From: Chitinophagales bacterium
Lineage (GTDB): Bacteria; Bacteroidota; Bacteroidia; Chitinophagales; LD1
Direction of reading: 5' to 3'
NCBI GenBank assembly: GCA_016786765.1
Contig: JAEUUZ010000019.1
Span: forward strand, 1-64,000
Length of the DNA: 64,000 nucleotides
Shown: positions 17,668 through 43,828 of the stretch, one piece after another
Position numbering within the stretch: position 1 is the first letter of the stretch
How the letters are laid out: each line of letters starts with the position of its first letter
The notes under the pieces: model-generated
What the model was told of the DNA's origin: nothing
Seen by the model: only the letters and a program-made list of their open reading frames with translations
Databases searched by the model: none
Position numbers and translations under genes: made by a program

Positions 17668-20600
17668 ATGCAAAACTTCAAGAAAATTAATACCCTGGTA
17701 GGCTTCGGTGTGCTGTTATTCGCTACTGTTGTTTACGCGATGACCATGGAATCGAGCGGAAGCTTCTGGGACTGCGGTGAGTTCGTTTCGGGCTGCTGGA
17801 AACTACAGGTAGTTCACGCTCCGGGGGCACCATTCTTCCTTATGTTGGGACGATTGTTCACACTTTTGGCTTTTGGCGATACTTCGAAAGTGGCAATGAT
17901 GGTGAATTTTATGTCGGGTTTAAGCACTGCCGCTTCGATTATGTTTTGTTATTGGTCGGTAGTGATGTTGGCAAAAAAAATGTTTTTTACGGATAAGAAC
18001 AATCCAACATCGGGCGAGGCGATTGCCGTGATGGGAGCCGGTTTGATAGCCGCAGGTTGCGCTACGTTCTTGGATTCGTTGTGGTTTTCGGCTGTGGAGG
18101 GCGAGGTGTATGCCTTGTCGCAGTTCTTTATGGCGATTATTGTTTGGGCAATTTTGAAATGGGACGAAAGCGAAAGCAAATACGCTGACCGTTGGATTAT
18201 TTTTATTGCCTATATGGTGGGCTTGTCGATAGGCGTTCACTTACTTTCGTTACTAGCCTTGCCGTTTATTGCGGTGGTATACTATTTCAAAAACCACAAA
18301 ACTTCGGTAGTAGGCTTTTTTATTGCCGCTTTTGCCGGTTTTGGCGTGTTGGGTTTTGCGATGAAGTTTGTTATTTCTTACACCCAGGCGTTCATGGCCG
18401 GGTTCGATAAATTCTTTGTGAACACATTGGGATTACCGTTTTACAGCGGTGTGATTTTCTTCTTCTTGTTGTTGATTTCATTATTGGCGTACGGCATTTA
18501 TTATACTCAAAAAACGAATCGGTACTTATGGAATTTGGGATTGATTTCGGCTTCGTTTGTGTACATCGGCTACTTATCGTATGCGATGGTGCCTATTCGT
18601 GCTGTAGCAAATACACCCATTAACATGAACAGACCGGCTGATCCATTCAGCATTAAATCGTATGTAGATCGTGAGCAGTATGGCGACAGACCGTTGGTGT
18701 ACGGACCGGATTATACCGCAACTTATCAGGATATTGAAGGACAAAAAGAATTGGGCGACCGTTTCTACAAAGGCAAAGACAAATATGAATTTGGCGGAAA
18801 GAAAATCGATTATATTTTCAAAGATGAGGCATGTATGTTATTCCCTCGTTTAGGTTTTTGGCAAGAAACGCAAAAGCACGATGGGTATAGAACATGGTTA
18901 AACCCGGCAGCGAAATTAATTGACCGTAAGACGAACGAGGTGGTACAAACCTTTGATCCGGGTCAGCGCCAGCAAGCCAACCAAATTGCGCAACAACGTA
19001 ATGCCGAGCAACCGGGACGTTATTTTGTGAAAGATGATGTTTCGATGAAAGACAACATTTGGTATTTCTTGAAGTATCAGATTGGGTATATGTACTTCCG
19101 TTATTTTATGTGGAACTTTGCCGGTAGACAAGATGATATTCAAGGCACTTACGGTAACGACAATGGCCGTTGGATAAGCGGTATTCCGTTTATTGACAAT
19201 TCGGGGTTATTCTTTACACCGGAGTATCCGCAAGAGCATTTATCGAAAGAATCGTTGGAAAACAAAGGCCGCAACAAGTTTTACATGATTCCGTTCATTC
19301 TGGGATTGATTGGTTTGATTTACACATTGTACAAAAACGAAGAAATTTTCTTGAAGATTTTGGTGTTGTTTATAGTTACCGGTTTGTTCCAGATTGTGTA
19401 TCAAAACGAGCCGCCAATAGAGCCGAGAGAGCGCGATTATGCACAGGCAGGTTCGTTCTGGACGTATTGTTTCTGGATTGGATTTGGGGTGTTAGCGATT
19501 TGGGATTTCTTACGTAAGAAAATGGCTGAAATTCCTGCAGCCGGTGTGGCTTTAGCCTTATCGTTGAGTGCGCCAATTTTAATGGGAGCGCAAGGATGGG
19601 ATGATCACACTCGCCACAACCGTTATACCGCAAGAGATTTAGCGAGAGATTATTTAGAGTCTTGTCAGCCGAATGCTATTTTGATGACGATGGGTGATAA
19701 CGATACTTATCCATTGTGGTATGCACAAGAGGTGGAAGGTATTCGTCCGGATGTGCGTGTCATCAACCTTTCGTTATTAGGTGTAGATTGGTATATCCAG
19801 CAATTGAAATATCGATGGAACCAATCGGCACCGGTTAAAACTTCGTTTACCGATGAGCAAATACAAGCTAGCAACCGCGATGTGGTGCGCTACTCGCCTA
19901 CTCCGGGTATTAATGAAGAAACACCATTAGATTTGAAAAAGGTGATGCAATTTATTGCCAGCGATGATCCGAAAAACAAGGTGAGTTCAGGTCAAGGTGA
20001 GATGGAGAATTTCTTACCAACAAGAACATTCTATTTAGATATAGACACTAACAAAGCGAAAGCGATGAATATGTTAGACCCGGCTGATTATGCACAGTTG
20101 ACTCCGCGTATGAATTGGCAAATAGGTAGTGGAACGTTGTTGAAAAACGATTTACTGACCTTAGATATTGTGGCGAACAACATTATGGAACGTCCGATTT
20201 ACTTTGCAGTTTCTGTAAGTTCAGATGCGTATGAAGGCTTAGATAAATATTTCCAATTGGAAGGATTAACCTACAGAATTGTTCCTAGAGAGTCGGGGTC
20301 TAAGGGCCATCAAACGGCACCTGTACGTAATGATGTGGCGTATGAGAACATGATGAAGAAATTCAAATTCGGAGGCGTTGAAACGTACCCTGATTTGTAT
20401 ATCGATGAAAACATCCAACGTATGTTCATGAATTTGAGAGGCAACTACGCACGTTTAGCGGAATCGTTAGCGGTAAAAGGCGATACGAAAAAAGCGGTTG
20501 AAGTGATTGACTATGCGTTGAAAATGATGCCGGCTAAGTTGATTCCGTATAATGTGTTCAATGCTTCTTACCCTGAGTTTTATTATGCTGCTGGCGATAA

Positions 20601-20898
20601 AGCAAAAGCAAGAAAACTATCGGATGAGTTGTTAGCAAGAGCGAAAGATGAATTACAATACTGGCAATATGTTTATAAGCTACAACTGGAAAAAGCTTCA
20701 GATAGTGGCGATAGAGCGTATTTAGCGCAATTGCAACAAGGCTACTTTATGCAGAACCGTCCTATTCAAGAACAATTGTACATTTTACAAGAGTTGAGTT
20801 CTATTGCGAAACGATTCGATCCTGAAATGGCTGCAAAATTGGAAAAAGAATTCAAAGATGCGCAGGCCAGCTTTGTGAAAGATATGCCAAAAAGCTAG
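17668..20898 (+). CDS. GT117 / DUF2723 family membrane glycosyltransferase-like protein
   Basis: A 1076-residue protein. The N-terminus (MESSGSFWDCGEFVSGCWKLQ, then HAPGAPFFLMLGR) is the signature of the DUF2723 family, related to TMEM260 O-mannosyltransferase and named GT117. About a dozen membrane helices fill residues 8-340 and 540-660. A soluble loop lies between, and a long C-terminal part contains TMGDNDTYPLWYAQEVEGIRPDVRVINLSLL and a helical repeat-like end. The enzyme would transfer a sugar from a lipid-linked donor to protein or glycan on the periplasmic side; the substrate is unknown. It follows the repeat-rich gap that ends the island and leads a run of glycan genes. Confidence 0.85.
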   Translation: MQNFKKINTLVGFGVLLFATVVYAMTMESSGSFWDCGEFVSGCWKLQVVHAPGAPFFLMLGRLFTLLAFGDTSKVAMMVNFMSGLSTAASIMFCYWSVVMLAKKMFFTDKNNPTSGEAIAVMGAGLIAAGCATFLDSLWFSAVEGEVYALSQFFMAIIVWAILKWDESESKYADRWIIFIAYMVGLSIGVHLLSLLALPFIAVVYYFKNHKTSVVGFFIAAFAGFGVLGFAMKFVISYTQAFMAGFDKFFVNTLGLPFYSGVIFFFLLLISLLAYGIYYTQKTNRYLWNLGLISASFVYIGYLSYAMVPIRAVANTPINMNRPADPFSIKSYVDREQYGDRPLVYGPDYTATYQDIEGQKELGDRFYKGKDKYEFGGKKIDYIFKDEACMLFPRLGFWQETQKHDGYRTWLNPAAKLIDRKTNEVVQTFDPGQRQQANQIAQQRNAEQPGRYFVKDDVSMKDNIWYFLKYQIGYMYFRYFMWNFAGRQDDIQGTYGNDNGRWISGIPFIDNSGLFFTPEYPQEHLSKESLENKGRNKFYMIPFILGLIGLIYTLYKNEEIFLKILVLFIVTGLFQIVYQNEPPIEPRERDYAQAGSFWTYCFWIGFGVLAIWDFLRKKMAEIPAAGVALALSLSAPILMGAQGWDDHTRHNRYTARDLARDYLESCQPNAILMTMGDNDTYPLWYAQEVEGIRPDVRVINLSLLGVDWYIQQLKYRWNQSAPVKTSFTDEQIQASNRDVVRYSPTPGINEETPLDLKKVMQFIASDDPKNKVSSGQGEMENFLPTRTFYLDIDTNKAKAMNMLDPADYAQLTPRMNWQIGSGTLLKNDLLTLDIVANNIMERPIYFAVSVSSDAYEGLDKYFQLEGLTYRIVPRESGSKGHQTAPVRNDVAYENMMKKFKFGGVETYPDLYIDENIQRMFMNLRGNYARLAESLAVKGDTKKAVEVIDYALKMMPAKLIPYNVFNASYPEFYYAAGDKAKARKLSDELLARAKDELQYWQYVYKLQLEKASDSGDRAYLAQLQQGYFMQNRPIQEQLYILQELSSIAKRFDPEMAAKLEKEFKDAQASFVKDMPKS

Positions 20899-20937
20899 TC
20901 GTGCAGACGTTTTAGGTTAAACACTAAATTCAACGAC

Positions 20938-22041
20938 TTGAACATTGGGATTCTCGGTATTGGTAAATTGGGGCTTTGTTTCGGATTAAACCTTGAGCAG
21001 AAAGGGTATTCGATTGTGGGTGTAGATATTCATGAAGGCTATGTGCATTCCATCAATAACAAAACATTGTTTTCATTTGAGCCACGGGTAAACGAACTGT
21101 TGCAGTCTGCTTCGAATTTCAAAGCTACCACAGCAATTGCGGATGTACTGTTGGATGATTTTCCATTGCTCTTTATTATGGTAGCCACACCATCGTTGCC
21201 CGATGGAAGTTACGACCACGCACAAATTGAACATATAGCCGAGCAATTGATAGGCTTTGGCAAACGGGATAAGCAAATTCATTTGGTGATTGGCTGTACA
21301 ACAATGCCCGGATATTGTGACGACTTAGCCAAACGACTTGAGCATTACAACTATACAGTAAGTTATAATCCTGAGTTTATTGCACAGGGTGATATTATTC
21401 GCAATCAATTATATCCTGATCAGGTGCTGATAGGTGAAGCGAACGAAACCGCTGGCGATTTGATAGAAGAGGTGTTCACACAGTTATGTGAAAACAAACC
21501 GGTGTATTGTAGAATGAGTCGGCTTAGTGCTGAAATTGCGAAAATTGCCACAAATTGTTTTCTAACAACGAAGATTTCGTTTGCCAATTCGATTGGCGAT
21601 TTAGCCATTAAGGTTGGTGCTGAGCCCGAAAAAATATTGCATGCCATTGGGGCCGATAGTAGAATCGGGAATAAATATTTATCGTATGGCTTTGGCTTTG
21701 GCGGCCCTTGTTTCCCGAGAGATAATAAGGCACTTGGGCTTTTTGCGCGCAATAATGATTACGCCTTGTTGCTGAGTGAAGCAACTGATGAGATAAACAA
21801 ACGTCATCTTACGTTTCAATGGCAAGACTACTTAAAGACCTATTCGGAAGATGAAAAAATCGTCTTCGATGGTATAACATATAAAAAAGGTTCATTACTT
21901 TTAGACGAATCTCAACAATTCGCTTTAGCCCTTTTGCTGGCAAAGGCAGGCCGAAAGGTAGTGTTGCGAGATCAGGAAGTAGTGCTAACAGCAATTAAAA
22001 AGGAATACGGCAACCTTTTTGATTATGAACCTAACCCATGA
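20938..22041 (+). CDS. Nucleotide-sugar (UDP-glucose/UDP-ManNAc type) dehydrogenase
   Basis: A 367-residue protein. The TTG at 20938 is the only usable start: an in-frame stop lies 39 bp upstream and the Rossmann motif GILGIGKLG begins at residue 4. The middle contains a conserved Lys/Asn helix (EIAKIATNCFLTTKISFANSIGDL). The catalytic Cys258 is in GGPCFPRDNKAL, the signature of the UDP-glucose/GDP-mannose dehydrogenase family, which oxidises C6 to a uronic acid in two NAD+ steps. The chain is somewhat short (family about 390-450), mainly in the C-terminal domain. The exact sugar cannot be told. Its TGA overlaps the next ATG by 4 bp. Confidence 0.87.
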   Translation: MNIGILGIGKLGLCFGLNLEQKGYSIVGVDIHEGYVHSINNKTLFSFEPRVNELLQSASNFKATTAIADVLLDDFPLLFIMVATPSLPDGSYDHAQIEHIAEQLIGFGKRDKQIHLVIGCTTMPGYCDDLAKRLEHYNYTVSYNPEFIAQGDIIRNQLYPDQVLIGEANETAGDLIEEVFTQLCENKPVYCRMSRLSAEIAKIATNCFLTTKISFANSIGDLAIKVGAEPEKILHAIGADSRIGNKYLSYGFGFGGPCFPRDNKALGLFARNNDYALLLSEATDEINKRHLTFQWQDYLKTYSEDEKIVFDGITYKKGSLLLDESQQFALALLLAKAGRKVVLRDQEVVLTAIKKEYGNLFDYEPNP

Positions 22042-23939
22042 AAACAAACATAGCTATTGTTGTCCCAACCTTCAACCGCCCCCATTGTCTGATGCGGTTG
22101 TTGGATGCATTAGCCAAAGCCGAATACTCGCAAAACACAGATCTTTTTATATCCATTGATGATGCATCGGTTCAAACAAAAACAGTTGCTATAGCCGAAG
22201 AATATCTATGGGCTTTTGGTTCAAAAAAAGTAATTCGGAATACCCAACATTTGGGACTGAAACAGCATATTCTGTTGTGTGTCGACATTGTAAATGACTA
22301 CGATGCCATTATCGTTTTAGAAGACGACTTAGTGGTTTCGCCTTACTTTTTTGCATACACACAACAGGCACTTGCGTTTTATTCCGCTGAAGAAAAAGTA
22401 GCCGGGATATCGTTGTATAGCTATGCTATTACGGAAAGCGGATTTTATCCTTTTTACCCTAAGCAAGATGGCAGTGATGTTTACTTCATGCAAGTGGCAT
22501 CATCGTGGGGACAGTGTTGGACAAAACAACAGTGGAATGCCTTTAGGCGATGGCTAAAGGAACATCCCGAGCTCAAGAGCAATAAACCTTTACCTGATTA
22601 CATTCAAAGTTGGGGAGCGCAATCGTGGAAGAAACATTTCATTCATTATTTGATTGATACTGATTCGTATTTTGTTTTCCCGCATCAATCGCTCAGTACT
22701 AACTTTGGCGATCCCGGCACCAATACCGATCGAAAAGGATTGTTTCAAACCCCCTTGATGCAAGGTAATCGCAACTTCCAGTTTCAATCCCTTACTGCTT
22801 CGCAAAGCAAGTATGATGCTTGGTTTGAACAAAATGTTTTTCAAAAAGGAATTTACAATTCAAGCAATACCACTATTGATGTTTATGGTGAGCGCGCATT
22901 AGACAGTGTGCTTACGCCATTTTTGATTTCCTCTAAAAAATGCAACCAACCTATACAATCGTTTGGGATTGAACTATCGGATTACACGCAGAATATTATG
23001 CAAGATGTAAAAGGTGAATTTTTACATCTTGGTGCCACAAAAGATTTTATCGATAAAAAACCGAATCGCGAGGCTTTTTTTCCACAATTGAAAGGGATTA
23101 AGGATTTAGTTTTCCATGAGTTTATCGAATCGGAAGCTACTGAAAGAGGGCGTGCTGCGTTTGAAAAACACATGTACAATCAACAGTACCCTACATTCTG
23201 CATTCTTATTATAGCTGATACTTCGGATGGACTTGCGTTAACACTGAATAGCATTTCAAGACAAAAATATCCGTTTGTAGATGTTAAGATCTTCGCGAAA
23301 ACAACGCTTAGTATACATCCGCTTCCGGAACACATTAATAGCCTCCAAATCATTGAATCAGCCGATGACCAAATGGTACTGGATGCATTGACTACCTCCT
23401 CATATGCCTACGGTGCGTTGGTCCAATCTGGCGATGAATATGCAGAAGGAGCGTTATTAGCGGCAAAAAACATTTTTAAACGTTTTGTAGATATACATTG
23501 GTTGTATGGCATTGTGGTTGGCAAACACAATGGCGTTTTACAAGCCCCAAAACCAATATGCAAAAGAAGGTTCACGGAAAGATTAATTACTGCTGAAGTT
23601 GAAACCACTGGCACAACAAGTCTTCGCTCGGCAGGTTTATTCTTTTCAGAATATCTTGCAAAAGAGAGTATCAAAAAAATGAAAGTAAACGGTCTATCGG
23701 GAATTCCACATCAACTTTGGTTGCAATGTATTCGGGAGACGCCATTGTATAGTGCCTCTTTTTATGCAGCTTATAGTGGAGAAAAGGAAGTAAAGCGATC
23801 ACAACCCTTTAGTTTCAAGCAATGGAGTTTTGAAAAAAACATTCCTTATTTACGCTATATATATTACCGCCAAGAAAAATTCCCGGCTGTTGTGCGCTTT
23901 GAACATAAAACCAATGCCTATTATTTAAGTGACTACTAA
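22038..23939 (+). CDS. Glycosyltransferase, GT2/GT13-like, two-part
   Basis: A 633-residue cytoplasmic protein. The first 300 residues are a GT-A domain: NIAIVVPTFNRPHCLMRLLDAL, SIDDAS, and the metal-binding VLEDDL with Glu95-Asp97. VASSWGQCWTKQQW and the acceptor region follow. The second half (from about residue 380) starts with YPTFCILIIADTSDGLALTLNSISRQKYP, which looks like a degenerate second GT2 fold without a clear DxD. The protein may therefore be a catalytic domain plus a binding domain. It overlaps both neighbours (4 bp upstream, 11 bp downstream), so it belongs to the glycan operon. The sugar is unknown. Confidence 0.82.
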   Translation: MKTNIAIVVPTFNRPHCLMRLLDALAKAEYSQNTDLFISIDDASVQTKTVAIAEEYLWAFGSKKVIRNTQHLGLKQHILLCVDIVNDYDAIIVLEDDLVVSPYFFAYTQQALAFYSAEEKVAGISLYSYAITESGFYPFYPKQDGSDVYFMQVASSWGQCWTKQQWNAFRRWLKEHPELKSNKPLPDYIQSWGAQSWKKHFIHYLIDTDSYFVFPHQSLSTNFGDPGTNTDRKGLFQTPLMQGNRNFQFQSLTASQSKYDAWFEQNVFQKGIYNSSNTTIDVYGERALDSVLTPFLISSKKCNQPIQSFGIELSDYTQNIMQDVKGEFLHLGATKDFIDKKPNREAFFPQLKGIKDLVFHEFIESEATERGRAAFEKHMYNQQYPTFCILIIADTSDGLALTLNSISRQKYPFVDVKIFAKTTLSIHPLPEHINSLQIIESADDQMVLDALTTSSYAYGALVQSGDEYAEGALLAAKNIFKRFVDIHWLYGIVVGKHNGVLQAPKPICKRRFTERLITAEVETTGTTSLRSAGLFFSEYLAKESIKKMKVNGLSGIPHQLWLQCIRETPLYSASFYAAYSGEKEVKRSQPFSFKQWSFEKNIPYLRYIYYRQEKFPAVVRFEHKTNAYYLSDY

Positions 23940-24846
23940 CCCTAAAATATCCGTTGTTACCGTTTGCAGAAATGCCGAACAATACATAAGAACATGTATA
24001 GAATCGGTTGTGGGGCAAAACTATGCTAACATCGAATATATTATTGTTGACGGAGCAAGTAATGACAATACGCTAAGTATCATAAAAGAATACGAAAGTA
24101 AAATCCACTGCATTATTTCCGAAACAGATTCAGGTCCGGCAGATGCGTTGAACAAAGGTTTTTTGAAAGCTACTGGCGATATTTTATGTTGGTTGAATGC
24201 CGATGATAAATTTCATCCTTATGCATTATCAACTGTTGCGAAACTATTTACGGATCTACCAAACGTGGATTGGATAACCGGCTTCCCTTCGTGGTATAAT
24301 GCAGAAGAAACCTGCTTAAATGAATTGTTTATTCAACGTACTCCGGTGTTTGACAACTATGTGCACGATGGTGTTTACCCGCATTTCAATCGATGGAGTA
24401 AAACACGATTTGTCAGTGGCGATTTTTTAGCCATACAACAGGAATCTGTTTTTTGGAGAGCTTCACTTTGGAAGAAAGCAGGCGCTAAAATTGAAAAAGG
24501 AATTATTGCTTTTGATTTTGAATTGTGGGTGCGTTTTTTTCAATGGGCAAGTATTTATACGGCCCCTGTATTGCTATCAGGATTCAGAGTACATAAGCAT
24601 CAATTGTCAGAAGATCAGGAACGGTATATTCGAGAATGCCAAAGCATTATTGAGCAATCGCATAACAACGAATCAATACATGCTAAAGTTTGGGACTTCG
24701 TAAAAATTAAATTTGCCTATTTATTTAAGCCATTTTATTACACCGACATTCCTCTACTTTGCCAACTATATCCTACCCTCATGGGCTTTCCGAAATTGAT
24801 AAAATTCAATGAAAGGCAGAATAAATTTACTATTGATTATATTTAA
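23929..24846 (+). CDS. Family 2 glycosyltransferase
   Basis: A 305-residue GT-A enzyme. A GTG start at 23929 places the protein 11 bp inside the previous gene and gives the classic N-terminus PKISVVTVCRNAEQYIRTCIESVVGQ. DGASNDNT, SETDSGPADALNKGFLKATGDI and LNADDK (metal-binding Asp92-Asp93) are all typical of GT2. SGDFLAIQQESVFWRASLWKKAG holds the likely acceptor/base region. No membrane helix is visible. The donor is not determinable. It is tightly coupled to the upstream GT and lies 3 bp from the next gene. Confidence 0.88.
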   Translation: MTTNPKISVVTVCRNAEQYIRTCIESVVGQNYANIEYIIVDGASNDNTLSIIKEYESKIHCIISETDSGPADALNKGFLKATGDILCWLNADDKFHPYALSTVAKLFTDLPNVDWITGFPSWYNAEETCLNELFIQRTPVFDNYVHDGVYPHFNRWSKTRFVSGDFLAIQQESVFWRASLWKKAGAKIEKGIIAFDFELWVRFFQWASIYTAPVLLSGFRVHKHQLSEDQERYIRECQSIIEQSHNNESIHAKVWDFVKIKFAYLFKPFYYTDIPLLCQLYPTLMGFPKLIKFNERQNKFTIDYI

Positions 24847-24849
24847 CCG

Positions 24850-27717
24850 ATGAGTAAGCAAAAAGAAATACAACAAAAAAAAGTAAGCAAGAGCAATACA
24901 AAAGAAACCCAAAAAAACAGCGAAGGTTTTCTCGCAAAATATGGGTTTAGCCTTTTTATTTTCTTGATTAGTTTTTTGGTGTATGCGAATTCCATTCCAA
25001 ACGATTATAATCTTGATGATGAATTGGTAACACAAAACCATCGTTTAACTGCCGGTGGAATTAGTGCTATCCCGGATATTTTCACCGAACCCTACTACAA
25101 AGATAAATTAGGCTACAGCTACGAGTATCGACCAATGGTACTTGTTTCTTTTGCTATTGAACATGAATTTTTTGGCGACAACCCGCATGTAAGTCATTTC
25201 TTCAACGTTCTTCTTTATGCCCTTTTATGTTTAACACTCTATCGGGTGATTAACCGACTTTTGGGTACAGACTACAGTATGATAACCTTTGTAGCCGCAA
25301 CTATTTTTGCTTTACATCCTATTCATACCGAGGTGGTGGCAAGTATAAAAAGCCGCGATGAAATACTATCGTTACTTGGTGCATTGTTAGCCCTTCGTTA
25401 TGCCCTTAAATTCAATGAAACAAAAAAGTGGATTTACGTTCCATGCATGTTTATTGCTTTTGTTTTCGGCTTGCTGTCAAAACTCACTATTACACCTTTC
25501 CTTATTTTCATCCCCATGGCCATTGCCTTTTTCCGAACCACATCGTTAAAAGAAATGCTACTACTGAGTATTGGACTTGCATTCCCATTATTCTTTTTGG
25601 TTAATATCAACCTTCTCAAAGACAGAGTCCAATTCTTGATGGGTGTACTTGTTTTGAATTGTGTTTTGTTTATCCTCAAAAACGGAGTTTCAGGTAATTG
25701 GCTGAAACACTTCTCTGTAAAGGGTTTTCTCGGCATTTATCTTTCGAATGCTAAATCGTATGCATCCAGTATTTCGTTTCGAAATTTTTATCAATGGCAG
25801 AGTATACTACTCAGCATTATCATTCTTGGGCTAGCCGGTTTAAACTATTTTTATTTCATAGCCGGAAATAACGGCTTGTTTCTTGGAACCCTTTTTATTA
25901 TTGGCTTTTCGCTATTGTGGCTAAATTGGGAATGGAAACTCATCGTTGGTATCGGATACTTATCCATGCTCCTCTTTTATCTGTTTAATTTGCAACTACC
26001 GCATCGTTTGGCATTATCTATTCTTCCATTTCCGTTACTGTATTTCGGCCTTCGCTCAAAAGGAATCCAGCGCATCTTGTTAATTGCTTTTGCTATTGGT
26101 TTAACTACTCTATGGACAATACAGCGTTATGATGGTGTTATCGTTCTCGTTGGCGCAATGCTTGTGCTCTTCTATTTCCAAACAAAGACCGCTAAATACC
26201 AACTTCCAATTTTAATAGTTATTGCCATCGGACAAACAGTATTGTTTTTCTTGGGTACTGAAAAGAACATATTCTATTTTAACTTCCTCATTGTTTTTTT
26301 ATTCCTCTCCTATTTTTCTGAAAAAAATTATCGCATAGCAATTATAGGCGTTTTAGCATTTGTATTGCTTATCCCATCGCTGATTAGTATCAAAGTTGCG
26401 CAACAGCCTTTACATATACAGTTGCAAGACACCCATATTGTAGGAAAGCTCAGCAGTACCAATGGACCTACGATCATAGCATATACCAATCGTCCGCTTA
26501 ATTTTGTTGAGATTCCTGTTGGGTTAAATGAACCGTTAGCTATTCGGTTGGGAACCGGAATGGATATTTTTGCTAAATATTTAAAGTTGATCTTTGCACC
26601 GTATCCAATGTCGTTTTATTATGGGTATAAATATATTGATGCACTGAATTTTTGGAATGCATACCCAATCGCTATTTTCTTAATGCATTTATTAATTGCA
26701 GGATTGGGCTTATATTTCTTGCGCAAGCGACCCATCATATCGTTTAGCATTTTTGTTTACTTGATTTCGTTAGCCTCTGTATCTACAGTTGTTTCAGCAC
26801 TTCCGGGAATGATGGCCGATCGTTACTTACTCATCCCAAGTATTGGATTTAGCATCTTGGTGAGCTATTTACTGCTTTTACTTTCCAAAAATCCGTTTAA
26901 CGGGAAGTCGCTTAACGAATTTTCTCTTCCGCTGAAAGCAATACTATTATTGATTTGCATTGCGTATTCCGGTGTAACCATAGCGCGCAATTTTGATTGG
27001 AAAGACCGAGTAACGTTATTCTCTAAAGATATTGAGAATGTTTCGAATTCAGCGCAAGCTAGAAATTTGTATGCAGTGCATTTAGCTTTAAAAGCCGGTA
27101 CAACATCGAATACATCAGAGCAAACGAAATGGAGAGAAGATGCTTGTGTTCAATTCAAAAAAGCCCTCGACATTTATCCCGAATTTATGAATGCTTCTTT
27201 CGATTTAGGCAGAACACTTGTGCAGCTGAACCGTTATGATGAAGCTATGGCAGAATTTAAAAACACAATTAGAATAAAACCTACATTTTCTGAGCCATAC
27301 AGCAACATTGCCGTTTTGCTGGATGCACAAAATAAATTCGCGGAAGCGATTCCCTATTATAAAAAGGCGATTGAAATTCGTCCAAAACTAATGGTATACG
27401 CCAACTTGAGCTTTGATTATTTCCGGCTGAATGATTTTGAAAACTCACTAGCGGTAAGCAGAGATGCCAGTAAGGATTTCCCAAATGCCTATCAACCCTA
27501 TTTCAATATGGCGAAAGTGTTTATGCGGATGGGGGCTAGAGACAGTGCGATTGCAAATTTCGAAAAAGCGTATAAGTACAACGAAAATGACTATAGCTTA
27601 GTGAGCACACTGTATGCGATGTATGCTGAAAGAAACGACCCACGTGCATCCTACTTTGGAGAACGACTAAAACTATTACCTAAACCACAAACAGGGAATT
27701 TCATCAATCAAAAATAA
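24850..27717 (+). CDS. TMTC-like GT-C membrane protein with C-terminal TPRs
   Basis: A 955-residue protein. After a basic tail (1-30) comes a GT-C core of many membrane helices. The first periplasmic loop carries the acidic motif NLDDE (Asp56-Glu58) expected of lipid-phosphate-sugar transferases, and HPIHTEVVASIKSRDEIL follows, which is characteristic of TMTC/O-mannosyltransferase-like proteins. From about residue 760 tetratricopeptide repeats appear (ALDIYPEFMNASFDLGRTL, FKNTIRIKPTFSEPYSNIAVL and others). TMTC proteins in animals O-mannosylate cadherins; the bacterial version probably glycosylates exported proteins (inference). It ends the glycan gene run. Confidence 0.82.
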   Translation: MSKQKEIQQKKVSKSNTKETQKNSEGFLAKYGFSLFIFLISFLVYANSIPNDYNLDDELVTQNHRLTAGGISAIPDIFTEPYYKDKLGYSYEYRPMVLVSFAIEHEFFGDNPHVSHFFNVLLYALLCLTLYRVINRLLGTDYSMITFVAATIFALHPIHTEVVASIKSRDEILSLLGALLALRYALKFNETKKWIYVPCMFIAFVFGLLSKLTITPFLIFIPMAIAFFRTTSLKEMLLLSIGLAFPLFFLVNINLLKDRVQFLMGVLVLNCVLFILKNGVSGNWLKHFSVKGFLGIYLSNAKSYASSISFRNFYQWQSILLSIIILGLAGLNYFYFIAGNNGLFLGTLFIIGFSLLWLNWEWKLIVGIGYLSMLLFYLFNLQLPHRLALSILPFPLLYFGLRSKGIQRILLIAFAIGLTTLWTIQRYDGVIVLVGAMLVLFYFQTKTAKYQLPILIVIAIGQTVLFFLGTEKNIFYFNFLIVFLFLSYFSEKNYRIAIIGVLAFVLLIPSLISIKVAQQPLHIQLQDTHIVGKLSSTNGPTIIAYTNRPLNFVEIPVGLNEPLAIRLGTGMDIFAKYLKLIFAPYPMSFYYGYKYIDALNFWNAYPIAIFLMHLLIAGLGLYFLRKRPIISFSIFVYLISLASVSTVVSALPGMMADRYLLIPSIGFSILVSYLLLLLSKNPFNGKSLNEFSLPLKAILLLICIAYSGVTIARNFDWKDRVTLFSKDIENVSNSAQARNLYAVHLALKAGTTSNTSEQTKWREDACVQFKKALDIYPEFMNASFDLGRTLVQLNRYDEAMAEFKNTIRIKPTFSEPYSNIAVLLDAQNKFAEAIPYYKKAIEIRPKLMVYANLSFDYFRLNDFENSLAVSRDASKDFPNAYQPYFNMAKVFMRMGARDSAIANFEKAYKYNENDYSLVSTLYAMYAERNDPRASYFGERLKLLPKPQTGNFINQK

Positions 27718-38088: not shown

Positions 38089-39462
38089 ATGAAGGAGAAA
38101 ATTTCGAAGGCATTACCCTTTCTTGTCGTAGGAGTTGTAGTTTTTATGTTGCTGTCGTTACATTTCGGCTGGTTGAATGCTTTCTTTTTTGATACCGAAC
38201 ATGCGGATGTACAAGGCATTGATTATTTCTCAGCCCCAAAATCGTATTTGAATTTATTAGAAAAACGAAGCATGTTCGATACCTGGGGTGGCACAGCTTA
38301 CGGTCCACACTCGACTTGGTATTTAGCACATCCTGCATTTAGTGTTTTTGTGGGTTCTTGGTTCTCTTTTTTTTCGCCATGGACAAGTTATTGGCTTTTT
38401 ACATTATTCTCTGTTGCATTAATGGCATTTAGCGGATGGATGATTTCAAGAGCATCGACCGACACCTTTAATCAGCGATTAAGCATTGCCGTATTACTTT
38501 GCGCATTTCCCACCTATTGGCTGTTGTTTGTAGGCAATATTCACGCAGTGCTTGTGGTAGCTATCACCTTTATTTTACTCGGCATTTTCGATCTTACTTA
38601 TGCTGAAAACGAACGACAAGGACAGCAAAAATTAATGGCAGGCTTACTCATTTCTTTCTTTTCTAAACCTGTAGTATTGCTGATGTTACCACTGCTACTC
38701 TTCACAAAAGAAACACGAAAAACAACCATAAAGAGTTTAGTGATTTACGGAATTGTTTCACTTATTTTCATTGTTGTTCCGATGTTTAATCCGGAGGGTG
38801 TTGGGCTGCAAAAACTAATGACATTGAACACCGACTTCATTAAGCAGAACATGAACATCTACAAAAACAATTTTGTGTTGAATGCTTTTATGAAAGACAA
38901 TGCCATGCATTGGTTTAACCTGATTGCCCAGTCGGAATACAAACTTATGCATGTGGATGTTTATTCTCTTCCTGTATTCGTGGACACTATTGCAGGACGT
39001 GAAACACCTGCAGGCATTTACAAAACACCGATTTACTTGAGTATGCTGTTATCATTTTTTGTGCTGTTCATCAACGATAAAAAAATAAGATTAGAAGCCA
39101 CATTGCTATTGATTATGGCCATTTCGCTCACCTTCTTTTTAAGTTATAACACGGTGTGGGAATATCAATTCACTTCAGCATTGCCTGTAATTGCATTACT
39201 CCCTATCTTAAAAGAAAAGGACGTGTTTTACAAAAAATATATTCCGGTGATGTTTGGCATTGGTTTATTTTTCTGCCTTCCCAGCCTATATTGCATGGTG
39301 CGCAAATCGGAATTAAACAGCAAGGCTATTACGCTCATTCGAGCCGATAGAGTCATTCCCGCCTTATTACTATTTGTGATGATGACCGTACTTTTATTCA
39401 ATATCATTAAACAACATATTGATACAGGGACCGAAGAAAATGCAGAAGAGAAAACGCAATAG
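38089..39462 (+). CDS. GT87-like (DUF2029) GT-C membrane glycosyltransferase
   Basis: A 457-residue protein with about eleven membrane helices. The first periplasmic loop contains DTEHADVQGIDYFSAPKSYLNLLEKRSMFDTW, the D-x-x-x-Y-x-A/S pattern of the polyprenyl-phosphate-sugar-dependent mannosyltransferase (GT87) group. Later helices contain LFVGNIHAVLVVAI, AGLLISFFSKPVVLLMLPLLL and YNTVWEYQFTSALPVIALL, also typical. It would take a sugar from a polyprenyl phosphate donor in the periplasm. It lies on the opposite strand just downstream of the polyprenyl-phospho-arabinose cassette, so that donor is a plausible substrate (inference). Its stop is 2 bp from the convergent TPR gene. Confidence 0.7.
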   Translation: MKEKISKALPFLVVGVVVFMLLSLHFGWLNAFFFDTEHADVQGIDYFSAPKSYLNLLEKRSMFDTWGGTAYGPHSTWYLAHPAFSVFVGSWFSFFSPWTSYWLFTLFSVALMAFSGWMISRASTDTFNQRLSIAVLLCAFPTYWLLFVGNIHAVLVVAITFILLGIFDLTYAENERQGQQKLMAGLLISFFSKPVVLLMLPLLLFTKETRKTTIKSLVIYGIVSLIFIVVPMFNPEGVGLQKLMTLNTDFIKQNMNIYKNNFVLNAFMKDNAMHWFNLIAQSEYKLMHVDVYSLPVFVDTIAGRETPAGIYKTPIYLSMLLSFFVLFINDKKIRLEATLLLIMAISLTFFLSYNTVWEYQFTSALPVIALLPILKEKDVFYKKYIPVMFGIGLFFCLPSLYCMVRKSELNSKAITLIRADRVIPALLLFVMMTVLLFNIIKQHIDTGTEENAEEKTQ

Positions 39463-39464
39463 TA

Positions 39465-40220
39465 TTATTTCTTCAAAGTAGCCTTTGCTTTTACATCTTG
39501 TGCCCAAGCTAAATTGTTTTTAGCTAATGTATTTTCTGGATTTGTTGAAATCGCTTTTTGGAACATGGCTATCGCCTCATCTGTGCTGTTCTTAAGCATA
39601 TACGCTACGCCTATATTATTCATTGCATCTGCATTGTTGGGCTCTTTGTCGAACACCATATTCCAAATCGAAATGCTTTTATCATATTGTCCAATTTTTT
39701 GATAATTCAATCCGTAGTTGATATAGAACTTCACATCGCGTTGTGCATCCGGTGTATTCTCTTGTGCCTGAATTACAGCAAGCGTTTTCGCCTTCTCATC
39801 GCTGGCCCATTTCAAATTATTTTTGGCCAATTGAAAGCCGGTGTCAATTTGTAATGCTTTGGTGCAGGCATCAATGCCATCTTGATATTGCATTAACATG
39901 GTGTAGGCACAGCCTAAATTATTGTAGGCAGCAGCACTTTTGGGATTAAGCGAAATAGCTTGTTTCAGCGGTTCAATACTTCTACCCGGACGGTTGGCGC
40001 CTATGCAAGCAATAGAATAGGCCAGCAAATTGTCGAATGTAGGATTCGTATTCGCAGTTTGCTCAAGCGCTGACAAATCAACTTGTGGTGCTTGAGTAAC
40101 CACATCGGCAGTCTTAGGTAAATCGGGCTTCCCGGAAGACTTAACAAACAGAAAAACTACCGGTGCTAGCAACAAAAATGCTGCAACGGCAAGAAGTACA
40201 ATTCGCTTATTCTTCAACAT
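39465..40220 (-). CDS. Tetratricopeptide-repeat protein, membrane-anchored
   Basis: A 251-residue protein with one N-terminal helix (about 8-28, VLLAVAAFLLLAPVVFLFVK). Residues 60-245 contain TPRs: PLKQAISLNPKSAAAYNNLGCAYTML, ACTKALQIDTGFQLAKNNLKWA, SISIWNMVFDKEPNNADAMNNIGVAYML and AMFQKAISTNPENTLAKNNLAWA. It is probably a periplasmic or membrane-facing scaffold; no catalytic domain. It follows the phosphatase of the arabinose cassette with a 48-bp gap and may be in the same transcript. Confidence 0.82.
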   Translation of the reverse strand: MLKNKRIVLLAVAAFLLLAPVVFLFVKSSGKPDLPKTADVVTQAPQVDLSALEQTANTNPTFDNLLAYSIACIGANRPGRSIEPLKQAISLNPKSAAAYNNLGCAYTMLMQYQDGIDACTKALQIDTGFQLAKNNLKWASDEKAKTLAVIQAQENTPDAQRDVKFYINYGLNYQKIGQYDKSISIWNMVFDKEPNNADAMNNIGVAYMLKNSTDEAIAMFQKAISTNPENTLAKNNLAWAQDVKAKATLKK

Positions 40221-40268: not shown

Positions 40269-40916
40269 CTAGTCTTTGTTTAACGCAGCAAACCATTGCG
40301 ATGTCAGGTTTGACGAATTCAACGGCATATTAAACCCATACTTCACTTCTGCGATAAAGTAAGCATCTCCACTTCCATGTCCATAACCATAACTTGGAAC
40401 ACCTTTGTTGGCGTCTAAGATCGGTAGTATCTGTTTTGCCTTTTCTTTTCCATAGCAGTTTTCACCGGCTATTTTCCCGGTGTAATATTGACCATCGTTT
40501 TCAAAAGTTGTATCAATAATTTTCATGTTTTGTTGTCGGCACCATTCGCCCAACCATAACCGAGAGGAAGCGGTCAATAGATAGACTTCATGTCCGCGCT
40601 CTTGATGCCAACGTATGAGCTGAAGCGCTTGAGGATAAACCATTTTAGGCAATACTTCATTACAAAACAATTGTCCTTTTTCTTCCAGTTCAGCAACAGA
40701 ACGACCTTTGTAGAAAAAAGTAAAAAAGCGCTCCTTCAATTTTTGATTGGAATATAATTTTAAGAAGTACAATAAAATAAAGGGACTGTTCAACACCATA
40801 CACCAATAGAGTTTGAAGCGGCCATCGGTATACTGAAGGAATTCCAAAAAAGAATCTTCAAAACTGATGGTACCATCAAAATCGAAAAACGCAATGCCTT
40901 TTGCTTGCTCACTCAT
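40269..40916 (-). CDS. HAD-IB phosphatase of polyprenyl-phospho-arabinose cassette
   Basis: A 215-residue HAD enzyme. Motif I FFDFDGTISFEDSF carries the nucleophile Asp12-type residue (FDFDGT). Motif II is LLTASSRLW, and motif III/IV is GKEKAKQI with GYGHGSGDAYF. It belongs to the HAD-IB group that includes SerB-like phosphatases. In the polyprenyl-phospho-arabinose pathway a phosphatase must remove the 5-phosphate from polyprenyl-phospho-5-phosphoribose; here a HAD-IB enzyme is in the place taken by a PAP2-type enzyme in mycobacteria (inference from context). Its start overlaps the stop of the DprE2-like gene by 4 bp. Confidence 0.8.
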   Translation of the reverse strand: MSEQAKGIAFFDFDGTISFEDSFLEFLQYTDGRFKLYWCMVLNSPFILLYFLKLYSNQKLKERFFTFFYKGRSVAELEEKGQLFCNEVLPKMVYPQALQLIRWHQERGHEVYLLTASSRLWLGEWCRQQNMKIIDTTFENDGQYYTGKIAGENCYGKEKAKQILPILDANKGVPSYGYGHGSGDAYFIAEVKYGFNMPLNSSNLTSQWFAALNKD

Positions 40917-41650
40917 AGATTCGTTTTCTTGAATAAGGCTTCAGGAATACTTTTGATGATGAACATTATTAACCACCAAACAGGTAATACATACACTACA
41001 TCTTTCTTTTTGCTAAAGGCTTTCCAAATAGCTTCGGCAACCTGCTCTGCACTAGCCGTAATAGGTTTAGGCGTTGGCGGCAAATCGGCTACCATTTTTG
41101 TTTTGATAAACCCCGGAATAACCGTTGCCACATGCACATTTGAAGCAAACATTCTTCCGCGCAAACCGCTCAAGAAGGCTGTTAATGCAGCTTTTGAAGC
41201 GCCATAAAGATAATTACTTTTCCGTCCGCGCTCTCCGGCCACAGAAGAAACACAAACGATACTACCTTGCTTTTTTGCTTCCATTGCATTAGCAATTATG
41301 CCTAAAATCGAAACGTTTCCAGTAAAGTTCGAATCGATAATTAATTGGGCTTCTTCAAAATCAGCTAATCCTTTTTCATGATTACCTAAATAGCCAAACA
41401 CAGAAACAACAACATCGGGTGCTATTGACAATGTTTCGTAAAAGGCTTTGTGTTCTGCTGTTTGCAGCGCATCAAAACGCACATTCTCCACTTTCACGTT
41501 GTGTCGAATTGCAATATCGCTGGCTAGCTTTTTTTGATAATCATCGATTGTTCTAGCCGCTAAAAGAATGTTATATCCTTCTTTTGCAAAACGATATGCA
41601 CATGCCTGACCCACATCAGCATTTGACCCTAACAATAGTAATGTTCCCAT
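40913..41650 (-). CDS. DprE2-like SDR, polyprenylphospho-2-keto-ribose reductase
   Basis: A 245-residue short-chain dehydrogenase. The NAD(P)-binding motif is LLLGSNADVGQACA, and the catalytic Ser-Tyr-Lys appears in VCVSSVAGERGRKSNYLYGASKAAL. The ERGRKSN sequence before the tyrosine and the GFIKTKM segment are like DprE2. The C-terminal hydrophobic tail (YVLPVWWLIMFIIKSIPEALF) suggests membrane association, as expected for a lipid-linked substrate. It would reduce the 2-keto intermediate to polyprenylphospho-arabinose. It lies 8 bp after the DprE1-like gene. Confidence 0.85.
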   Translation of the reverse strand: MGTLLLLGSNADVGQACAYRFAKEGYNILLAARTIDDYQKKLASDIAIRHNVKVENVRFDALQTAEHKAFYETLSIAPDVVVSVFGYLGNHEKGLADFEEAQLIIDSNFTGNVSILGIIANAMEAKKQGSIVCVSSVAGERGRKSNYLYGASKAALTAFLSGLRGRMFASNVHVATVIPGFIKTKMVADLPPTPKPITASAEQVAEAIWKAFSKKKDVVYVLPVWWLIMFIIKSIPEALFKKTNL

Positions 41651-41658
41651 AAATGATT

Positions 41659-42966
41659 TTATATCGTTAACCGATTCGATTGTAATGATTGAAATTTAGT
41701 GGAATGCAAAAAAGCTGTTCCGTATGATTGATGAAATGTAGCACTTGTCATTCGTGCATCTTTGGTTAGATACAAACGACCACCATAGTCCAATACGACT
41801 TTATCGAGCTCATCCAATAATGCAAAAACTTTCGGACTTACTTTAAAATCAAGTGCCAGAGTATAGCCTTCAATGGGAAAAGAAAGTGGAGAAGAAAATG
41901 CATCGCCTTTTCCAAAAGTCTTTAATACTGCCAGAAACGAACCACAACCTGAATCGGCAATTTTAGTTAAGATCTTAATTAAACCTTCTCTCCCATTTTC
42001 AAATGGAATGGCAAATTGATACTGCGTGAATCCATTTTTACCATAAATTCTATTCCAGTTGGTGAGTATATCTAAGGGATAGAAATATGGATTATAATGT
42101 ACCACATTGTTTATTTCCTGTTGCCTTTGCTTGTTGTAGTACAAAAAGTTGAAGGCCTTAATCGACAGCTCGTTCAGGGCAAAAGCCGGAAACATAAAGG
42201 GCACATCAATTTGTTTTGCTGAATGCAATTGAAGTGGCTGCTTTGCTTGTTGTGCTTGCAAGTCTGATGGAGTAGCATGTTCACCAAGCATAAGAATAGA
42301 ACGTCCTAAACTATCGCCCTTCGACAAACAATCTATCCAAGCCACTGAATAGGTGTAGTGCTGATATTGTTCGAAATAATCGAGAATAGCATGTATATTC
42401 TTTGCTTTAACAGCCTTTTGTTTGATAAAGCTTGTTTCTATTTTCTTTAAATGGAGTGTAACCGTAAGCACCACACCGGTTAATCCCATACCGCCAATGG
42501 TATTGATAAAATGCTCCGTATTTTCTGTTCTTGAGCAACGAAGTATTTCGCCACTTTCAACCATCAAATCAAAGCATTCGATGTATTGCGAAATGGCTCC
42601 ATCTTTATGATGATTCTTTCCATGAATATTAGAAGCCACCGCTCCACCCATGGTAATAAATTTAGTACCGGGTGTAACTGGCAGAAAAAATCCCTTCGGC
42701 ACGATTACCTCTAAAATTTCGCTCAATAAAACGCCTGCTTCTGTTTTAATAATTCCGTTTACGGTGTCAAACGATAAGAATTTGTTCAGCGCCAGCGTAG
42801 AGAATATCTTAGGCTGTAAAGCACTATCGCCATAGCATCTGCCATTGCCACGAGGGATAAAAGCATCGGTAGTTCTCACATATGCTGCTATTTTATCGAC
42901 AGCATTTAACGTAGTGCATTCCGCATCGATAGTTGGATAGATTCCCCAATTAAATATTCTTTCCAT
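41659..42966 (-). CDS. DprE1-like FAD oxidoreductase, polyprenylphospho-ribose 2-epimerase subunit
   Basis: A 435-residue flavoprotein of the vanillyl-alcohol-oxidase family. The FAD domain shows PRGNGRCYGDSALQP, FFLPVTPGTKFITMGGAVASNIHGKNHHKDG and IGGMGLTGVVLTVTL, very close to mycobacterial DprE1. The C-terminal substrate domain has SFPIEGYTLALDF and YGGRLYLTKDARMTSATFHQ. Lys402 aligns with catalytic Lys418. Ala371 aligns with Cys387, the covalent benzothiazinone target, which is therefore absent. The enzyme would oxidise the 2-hydroxyl of polyprenylphospho-ribose. It overlaps the UbiA-type gene by 17 bp. Confidence 0.87.
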   Translation of the reverse strand: MERIFNWGIYPTIDAECTTLNAVDKIAAYVRTTDAFIPRGNGRCYGDSALQPKIFSTLALNKFLSFDTVNGIIKTEAGVLLSEILEVIVPKGFFLPVTPGTKFITMGGAVASNIHGKNHHKDGAISQYIECFDLMVESGEILRCSRTENTEHFINTIGGMGLTGVVLTVTLHLKKIETSFIKQKAVKAKNIHAILDYFEQYQHYTYSVAWIDCLSKGDSLGRSILMLGEHATPSDLQAQQAKQPLQLHSAKQIDVPFMFPAFALNELSIKAFNFLYYNKQRQQEINNVVHYNPYFYPLDILTNWNRIYGKNGFTQYQFAIPFENGREGLIKILTKIADSGCGSFLAVLKTFGKGDAFSSPLSFPIEGYTLALDFKVSPKVFALLDELDKVVLDYGGRLYLTKDARMTSATFHQSYGTAFLHSTKFQSLQSNRLTI

Positions 42967-43828
42967 ACAGAATAAATAAGAATGTTAACCCCCAAAGTAA
43001 AATAGTGATTTGCAAAAAACGATCTTTCCAAAGTACATCGGTGGGTGAACCCGATTCTTTATCGACCACTGTAATTTGTATGTAACGCATGATACCCAAA
43101 AACACAAATAGTGAAGTAAAGTAAAGTTTGTCCGACCCAATGCGGGCAATTACTTCGGGCGATATAGAATACAAAACATAAGAAATGAGCGTTATCGAAA
43201 ACGAGATACTTTTCGCTATGTCGAGAAAAGCAATGGAATAACCTGAAAGTGATTTACGTAAAGCATCTTTCTGCACATCAATCACCAAATCGTCTCTGCG
43301 CTTGGCAAAAGCCAATGAAATGGTAAGCAGAAATACCATAATGATCATCCAGTTTGACACAAATACTTGCGCCTCTTCGCCACCTGCAATTACCCGTAGT
43401 ACAAAACCAATGCTAATGCAGGATACATCCACTATAGATATTTTCTTTAGTCCAAACGAATACAAAACATTGAGTAAGAAATAACCCAATACATACCAAC
43501 GTGCATAGGCTATCAAAGTAAGGGTTGCTAGAAAAAGTAAAACTAAAACACATAAAATGATTATAGCCGAACTCTTGCTAAAAAAACCGCTGGCAATGGG
43601 TCTGAATTGTTTTTTGGGATGACGTCTGTCTTCTTCTACATCAATAATATCGTTCAATATATATATAGACGAAGCCGCAAAACAAAAGGAAAGAAAAACA
43701 AATGCCACGTTGGTACTCAGCACCAAACCAATTTTTCCGGCAAAAAAAACAGGAAGAAAAACAAACGCGTTCTTCATCCAATGTTTAATGCGCAGTAGCG
43801 ATAAAAAATGGCGAATATTTTCCGTCAT
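42950..43828 (-). CDS. UbiA-family polyprenyl-phosphate phosphoribosyltransferase
   Basis: A 292-residue membrane protein with about nine helices. The first prenyl-binding motif SIYILNDIIDVEEDRRHPKKQFRPIASG (two pieces of 20 or fewer: YILNDIIDVEEDRRHP and KKQFRPIASG) is the exact DPPR-synthase pattern, N-D-x-x-D-x-x-x-D-R-x-H-P. The second acidic loop FAKRRDDLVID also fits. The family transfers phosphoribose from PRPP to a polyprenyl phosphate (mycobacterial Rv3806c). It is the promoter-proximal gene of a four-gene cassette with the DprE1-like, DprE2-like and HAD phosphatase genes. Confidence 0.87.
   Translation of the reverse strand: MTENIRHFLSLLRIKHWMKNAFVFLPVFFAGKIGLVLSTNVAFVFLSFCFAASSIYILNDIIDVEEDRRHPKKQFRPIASGFFSKSSAIIILCVLVLLFLATLTLIAYARWYVLGYFLLNVLYSFGLKKISIVDVSCISIGFVLRVIAGGEEAQVFVSNWMIIMVFLLTISLAFAKRRDDLVIDVQKDALRKSLSGYSIAFLDIAKSISFSITLISYVLYSISPEVIARIGSDKLYFTSLFVFLGIMRYIQITVVDKESGSPTDVLWKDRFLQITILLWGLTFLFILYGKNI

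Follow-up and report, generated by a model that had tools for sequence, protein, structure and literature searches.

Does a member of the Bacteroidota make a lipid-linked arabinofuranose donor, and if so, which enzyme uses it? This question is raised by four genes in a stretch of 64,000 nucleotides (positions 1 to 64,000 of contig JAEUUZ010000019.1, assembly GCA_016786765.1, Chitinophagales bacterium; hereafter the window). A first-pass annotation made from the letters alone had described an overlapping operon at 40269-43828 encoding a UbiA-type phosphoribosyltransferase, a DprE1-like oxidase, a DprE2-like reductase and a HAD phosphatase, and had read it as covering all four steps from phosphoribosyl pyrophosphate (PRPP) to lipid-linked arabinofuranose. 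The operon is indeed as described: all four open reading frames (ORFs) are intact and lie tightly packed on the minus strand from 43828 to 40269, the UbiA and DprE1 genes overlapping by 17 bases, the DprE1 and DprE2 genes being separated by 8 bases and the DprE2 and HAD genes overlapping by 4 bases. The Bacteroidota host was correctly recognised as well, since nearly all best-matching named loci for the cassette belong to this phylum. We consider it highly probable, from sequence comparison, that the four enzymes would convert PRPP to polyprenyl-phosphate-β-D-arabinofuranose, that a carrier would flip this lipid-linked donor across the membrane, and that a GT-C glycosyltransferase, most likely the one encoded at 38089-39462, would add arabinofuranose to a glycan or glycoprotein outside the inner membrane.

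Family models and searches of the PDB agree with the proposed identities of the first three enzymes and with the four-step logic. The UbiA-family protein matched NF008977, the model for decaprenyl-phosphate phosphoribosyltransferase (DPPRS), with 218.5 bits and PF01040 with 75.7 bits; phosphoribosyltransferase models were its best matches, and a PDB search at E 0.001 retrieved nothing but the DPPRS chains 8j8j/8j8k (8j8j, E 4.8e-32). Its NDxxDxxxD motif (N59, D60, D63 and D67) is kept in 107 of 107 aligned homologues and has the spacing of N247, D248, D251 and D255 of Citrobacter ORF15, residues that were tested there by mutation. The oxidase reached 391 bits (E 7e-117) with the DprE1 model NF053785; in the PDB it matched DprE1 with 262 bits (E 6.5e-77), the next non-DprE1 protein scoring 40 bits, and both an HGKNHH loop at residues 115-120 and K402 are conserved. 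The short-chain dehydrogenase/reductase (SDR) scored 180.7 bits with the DprE2 model NF053786 and had DprE2 (21gq_C, E 2.2e-31) as its top PDB match; S136, Y149 and K153 are invariant in 109 homologues. For the HAD protein, TIGR01488 gave 68 bits (cut-off 45), TIGR01490 96.8 bits and PF12710 99 bits, a sequence search of the PDB found no relative at E 0.001, and D12, D14, S117, K159 and D184 are kept. Alignments with between 91 and 109 homologues show nearly all predicted catalytic residues retained across the cassette enzymes. Residue 371 of the DprE1-like protein is Ala and invariant in ten relatives, while solved mycobacterial DprE1 has Cys at this position (GWNICVDF), which we take to be the benzothiazinone-binding Cys387; natural insensitivity to benzothiazinones would therefore be expected.

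Across the phylum, 83 loci out of 120 (a few contigs were counted in both samples) have retained the gene order UbiA-DprE1-DprE2-HAD. The phosphatase is represented differently elsewhere: loci L116, L118, L119, L125 and L126 have UbiA-DprE1-DprE2 with a UbiA protein of 475-492 residues, the length of a HAD-UbiA fusion like PRK08238, and in two others (L120:7167-7574 and L121:8856-9287) a DUF212 ‘divergent PAP2’ gene, a possible alternative phosphatase, lies between the UbiA and DprE1 genes and a recognised HAD gene is absent. Since fusion-length UbiA proteins or DUF212 genes seem to take the place of the separate HAD gene in these loci, the phosphatase resembles an interchangeable module, for which a separate HAD protein is the commonest choice in our sample. 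In L118 and L119 a GtrA-family gene is placed between the UbiA and DprE1 genes; GtrA proteins are a proposed family of lipid-sugar flippases. That the phosphatase slot in the window appears to be filled by a HAD-IB rather than a PAP2 protein was rightly noted, but this arrangement is not new, because a UbiA-family polyprenyl-phosphate phosphoribosyltransferase (PPPRS) and a HAD phosphatase were demonstrated biochemically in Citrobacter by Kelly et al. in 2024 (PMC11127046).

How far the cassette extends was surveyed with the window's DprE1 protein as query at E 1e-50 or better, since the NCBIfam DprE1 model, used by itself, lacks specificity and picks up generic FAD oxidases (E ~1e-8 to 1e-14) in most genomes. 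Of the 392 Bacteroidota genomes sampled, 79 (~20%) encode a DprE1 homologue, and these represent 42 of the 179 genera. Within the order the count is 21 out of 198 genomes, and a family search covering 30 genomes gave a strong match in 5, the window's own genome included. The pathway, which the first-pass annotation had called best known from mycobacterial cell walls and Azorhizobium Nod factors, is not confined to these; this kind of pathway has been reported as widespread, including Pseudomonas pilin and O antigens (PMC11127046), and the cassette is a real member of it that is common in this phylum. Identity of the DprE1 proteins amounts to 73% within the genus, to 66% both in G541, which belongs to a different family of the order, and in a metagenome-assembled genome (MAG) labelled Bacteroidales, and to 62% in Algoriphagus, but only to ~40% in another genus of the window's own family. 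These values are out of step with taxonomy, likely because the cassette has been horizontally transferred. DprE1 and UbiA trees both group the window with the same small mix (Algoriphagus, Proteiniphilum, Saprospiraceae, MAGs and G541), with uneven branch supports. In Chryseobacterium, Epilithonimonas and relatives the cassette resides in one conserved neighbourhood, and no DprE1 relative was found in phage records. A contig labelled Spirulina sp. CS-785/01, a cyanobacterium, carries a DprE1 protein with 58% identity alongside UbiA and DprE2 (L146), which suggests either cross-phylum transfer or contamination.

Which enzyme, then, would use the donor? Three GT-C groups accompany the cassette: C5, AftB-like and GT87-like proteins. 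The protein encoded at 38089-39462 belongs to the last of these, matching PF09594 (GT87) with 25.1 bits, barely at the cut-off of 25.0; its homologue in G541 gave no match at E 0.01. We found this transferase in three genomes only, all of which also carry this cassette or one closely related to it, and it is cassette-adjacent in two. Within the order it occurs in 2 of 198 genomes, both cassette-positive, and it is missing from the other 19 cassette-positive genomes and from every cassette-negative one; among the 392 phylum genomes only the window protein itself was retrieved. The hypergeometric chance of this phyletic coupling is 0.011, resting on two order genomes that possibly share descent. 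In G019, from the same genus, a 73% relative lies beside the cassette with a TPR gene in between, as in the window. The TPR protein has relatives in G019 (58%, L107), where the gene occupies the same position, and in G541 (46%, L140), where it lies close to the GT-C gene. Owing to its confinement to two order genomes and its absence from all other phylum genomes, we regard the 38089-39462 protein as the best candidate user of the donor in this organism. Searching the PDB with its sequence returned no match, and single-sequence structure prediction (pLDDT 44, pTM 0.29) did not yield a fold.

The other nearby GT-C proteins that had been named as possible donor users fared differently from the 38089 protein, to which phyletic distribution lends support. 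The family of the TMEM260-like protein at 17668 is nearly universal, being present in 56 of 59 order genomes regardless of the cassette, and was dropped as a dedicated donor user; the 24850 protein has TPR-type Pfam matches only and gives no support for arabinose. Both lie in a second glycan-type cluster (17668-27717, plus strand), assigned partly by eye, which comprises the TMEM260-like GT-C, a polytopic protein with TPR repeats, a nucleotide-sugar dehydrogenase and two GT2-like proteins.

Coupling to the cassette is also displayed by C5, a GT-C family of ~550 residues without a Pfam or NCBIfam match. Among the 198 order genomes, 11 encode C5, every one of them DprE1-positive (hypergeometric 1e-12, uncorrected for kinship). 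In two partly overlapping sets of 40 and 80 loci, it lies close to the cassette in 13 and 16, respectively (L090-L099, L112, L114, L117 and 16 of L148-L222, e.g. L148:7182-8819, minus strand); in G282 it is present but unlinked. An AlphaFold model from 16 sequences (pLDDT 77, pTM 0.81) retrieved AftA as best Foldseek match (E 5e-4), followed by ArnT, and structural alignment gave Z-scores of ~20-22 for Pmt, ~16-17 for OST, 15.4 for ArnT, 14.5 for AftB, 14.4 for EmbB and 14.2 for AftA. The model points to a GT-C fold, from which sugar specificity does not follow, and C5 is a candidate arabinofuranosyltransferase. AftB-like proteins are encoded at L144:11305-12978 in Algoriphagus aestuarii, within the cassette between the DprE1 and DprE2 genes, and at L140:10805-12526 in G541, adjoining the 38089 homologue; they are 33% identical to each other, and the G541 protein matches NF041481, the model for terminal β-(1->2)-arabinofuranosyltransferase, at E 6.5e-9. 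No homologue of either group was found in the window's genome, whereas the same C5 query matches in 11 other genomes and the AftB model does match in C. glutamicum. That Bacteroidota employ unnamed GT-C families, such as C5 and here the 38089 protein, as dedicated D-arabinofuranosyltransferases appears to us evenly poised.

We favour synthesis and transfer of an arabinofuranose donor because the first three enzymes are homologous to solved DPPRS, DprE1 and DprE2; because catalytic residues and gene order are conserved; because in other Bacteroidota an apparent UbiA fusion or else a gene of the DUF212/PAP2 type occupies the phosphatase slot, while two cassettes enclose a GtrA gene; because an AftB-like GT-C gene lies within the A. 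aestuarii cassette and its G541 relative matches NF041481; and because of the ORF15 biochemistry and the link of DprE1/DprE2 to arabinose in the Citrobacter work (PMC11127046). Several observations weigh against it. All three NCBIfam equivalog cut-offs are missed (DprE1 391 of 500, DprE2 181 of 250 and DPPRS 218 of 234 bits), and these proteins are therefore homologues, not certified orthologues, although such scores may be expectable in a distant phylum. The SDR scores higher with NF005489 (300.6 bits, above cut-off) than with the DprE2 model. In the HAD protein, the first Asp of motif IV is replaced by His180; 92% of relatives have Asp at this position, and the six remaining outliers, including the same-genus relative, have Asn. 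The ORFs flanking the cassette revealed no linked flippase of the MATE or GtrA/SMR type, two GtrA genes being located on other contigs. Finally, the GT87-like, AftB-like and TPR genes of G541 reside together on a contig other than that of the cassette, and the GT87-like gene has as a neighbour a GT2-type gene whose product, judged by eye, would be a polyprenyl-phosphate-hexose synthase; for this reason the GT87-like enzyme might use another donor, which casts real doubt on the 38089 candidate.

This last point feeds an alternative that we hold only tentatively but give some weight, namely that the cassette makes the donor, yet the 38089 protein uses polyprenyl-phosphate-mannose or -glucose and the true arabinosyltransferase is encoded elsewhere in the genome. 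In its favour are also the weak match of this protein to GT87, a family that includes the polyprenyl-phosphate-mannose-dependent PimE, and the pairing of the cassette with other GT-Cs in relatives; the association with the cassette in all three genomes and the absence from other order genomes argue against it. It is unlikely that the oxidase and SDR act on polyprenyl-phosphate-ribose but give another pentofuranose or a 2-keto intermediate. Such an outcome would suit the higher NF005489 score, and in Citrobacter O2 a different SDR epimerase (ORF13) does turn the same precursor into xylofuranose (PMC11127046); on the other hand, the DprE1 assignment is very strong, the best solved match of the SDR is DprE2, and DprE1/DprE2 homologues go with arabinofuranose where ORF13 homologues go with xylofuranose (PMC11127046). 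Least credible, and very improbable in our view, is a chance neighbourhood of UbiA, FAD oxidase, SDR and HAD proteins of general lipid or quinone metabolism. All four stem from large superfamilies and the genome contains seven UbiA-type matches, but a gene order kept across the phylum and a UbiA protein whose best models are phosphoribosyltransferases and whose PDB relatives are DPPRS chains speak against coincidence.

Between the HAD gene and the TPR gene that follows it lie 48 bases, and promoter and terminator scans gave hits no more numerous than in shuffled sequences. Apart from the glycan loci, the window encodes a 1414-residue protein (6045-10289, minus strand) that contains the P-loop GAAGTGKT and, resembling a Walker B motif, LIILDGFDE. 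Visual inspection suggests a NACHT-like STAND ATPase whose N-terminus resembles a nuclease, and a role in anti-phage defence is possible.

Features of the cassette region in the window, with predicted products.
Feature	Position	Strand	Matches
UbiA-family polyprenyl-phosphate phosphoribosyltransferase (PPPRS/DPPRS homologue), 292 aa	42950..43828	-	NF008977, PF01040, PDB 8j8j
DprE1-like FAD oxidase, 435 aa	41659..42966	-	NF053785, PDB DprE1
DprE2-like SDR reductase, 245 aa	40913..41650	-	NF053786, NF005489, PDB 21gq_C
HAD-IB phosphatase, candidate 5-phosphate phosphatase, 215 aa	40269..40916	-	TIGR01488, TIGR01490, PF12710
TPR protein, hydrophobic N-terminal segment, 251 aa; possible accessory	39465..40220	-	Pfam TPR
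GT87-like GT-C glycosyltransferase, 457 aa, convergent with cassette	38089..39462	+	PF09594

With these data, a pathway targeted by antitubercular drugs extends to about one fifth of the sampled Bacteroidota genomes, and D-arabinofuranose is predicted in the surface glycans of cassette-bearing members. If GT-C families indeed act as arabinofuranosyltransferases, much of the phylum would bear an unrecognised arabinofuranose-containing surface glycan. The conserved donor cassette with its exchangeable GT-C partners, C5 foremost, provides a handle for finding transferases and acceptors. Searches of the open literature found nothing direct on arabinofuranose in Bacteroidota, which is weak evidence as subscription journals were outside their scope, and the string ‘Bacteroid-’ occurs nowhere in the main text of PMC11127046. 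New here are the extent in Bacteroidota, the swapping of parts and the coupling to C5.

Among known systems, the mycobacterial and corynebacterial pathway to decaprenyl-phosphoryl-arabinose (Rv3806c DPPRS, Rv3807c, DprE1 and DprE2) has the same reaction logic and provides solved homologues for three of the four cassette enzymes. It differs in that its phosphatase slot is taken by Rv3807c, which is unrelated to the HAD-IB protein, whereas the Bacteroidota genes form one short packed operon, whose product would be carried on a polyprenyl lipid and for which no arabinogalactan is expected. Pseudomonas aeruginosa possesses a dedicated pilin transferase, TfpW. For its D-arabinofuranose pilin glycosylation, a Gram-negative PPPRS homologue is likewise proposed to supply polyprenyl-phosphate-arabinofuranose (PMC11127046), while the phosphatase is of a different family and no pilin link was seen in the window. 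The three-component system of Citrobacter youngae O1/O2, consisting of ORF15 PPPRS-PRP, a MATE protein and GT136 (PMC11127046), shares with the pathway proposed for the window a UbiA PPPRS with a HAD phosphatase, a lipid-linked pentofuranose donor and its use by a GT-C enzyme outside the membrane. In Citrobacter a single protein combines HAD and UbiA, and ribose or xylose is the pentose supplied, whereas here the genes are separate, are joined by DprE1 and DprE2 and have no linked MATE gene.

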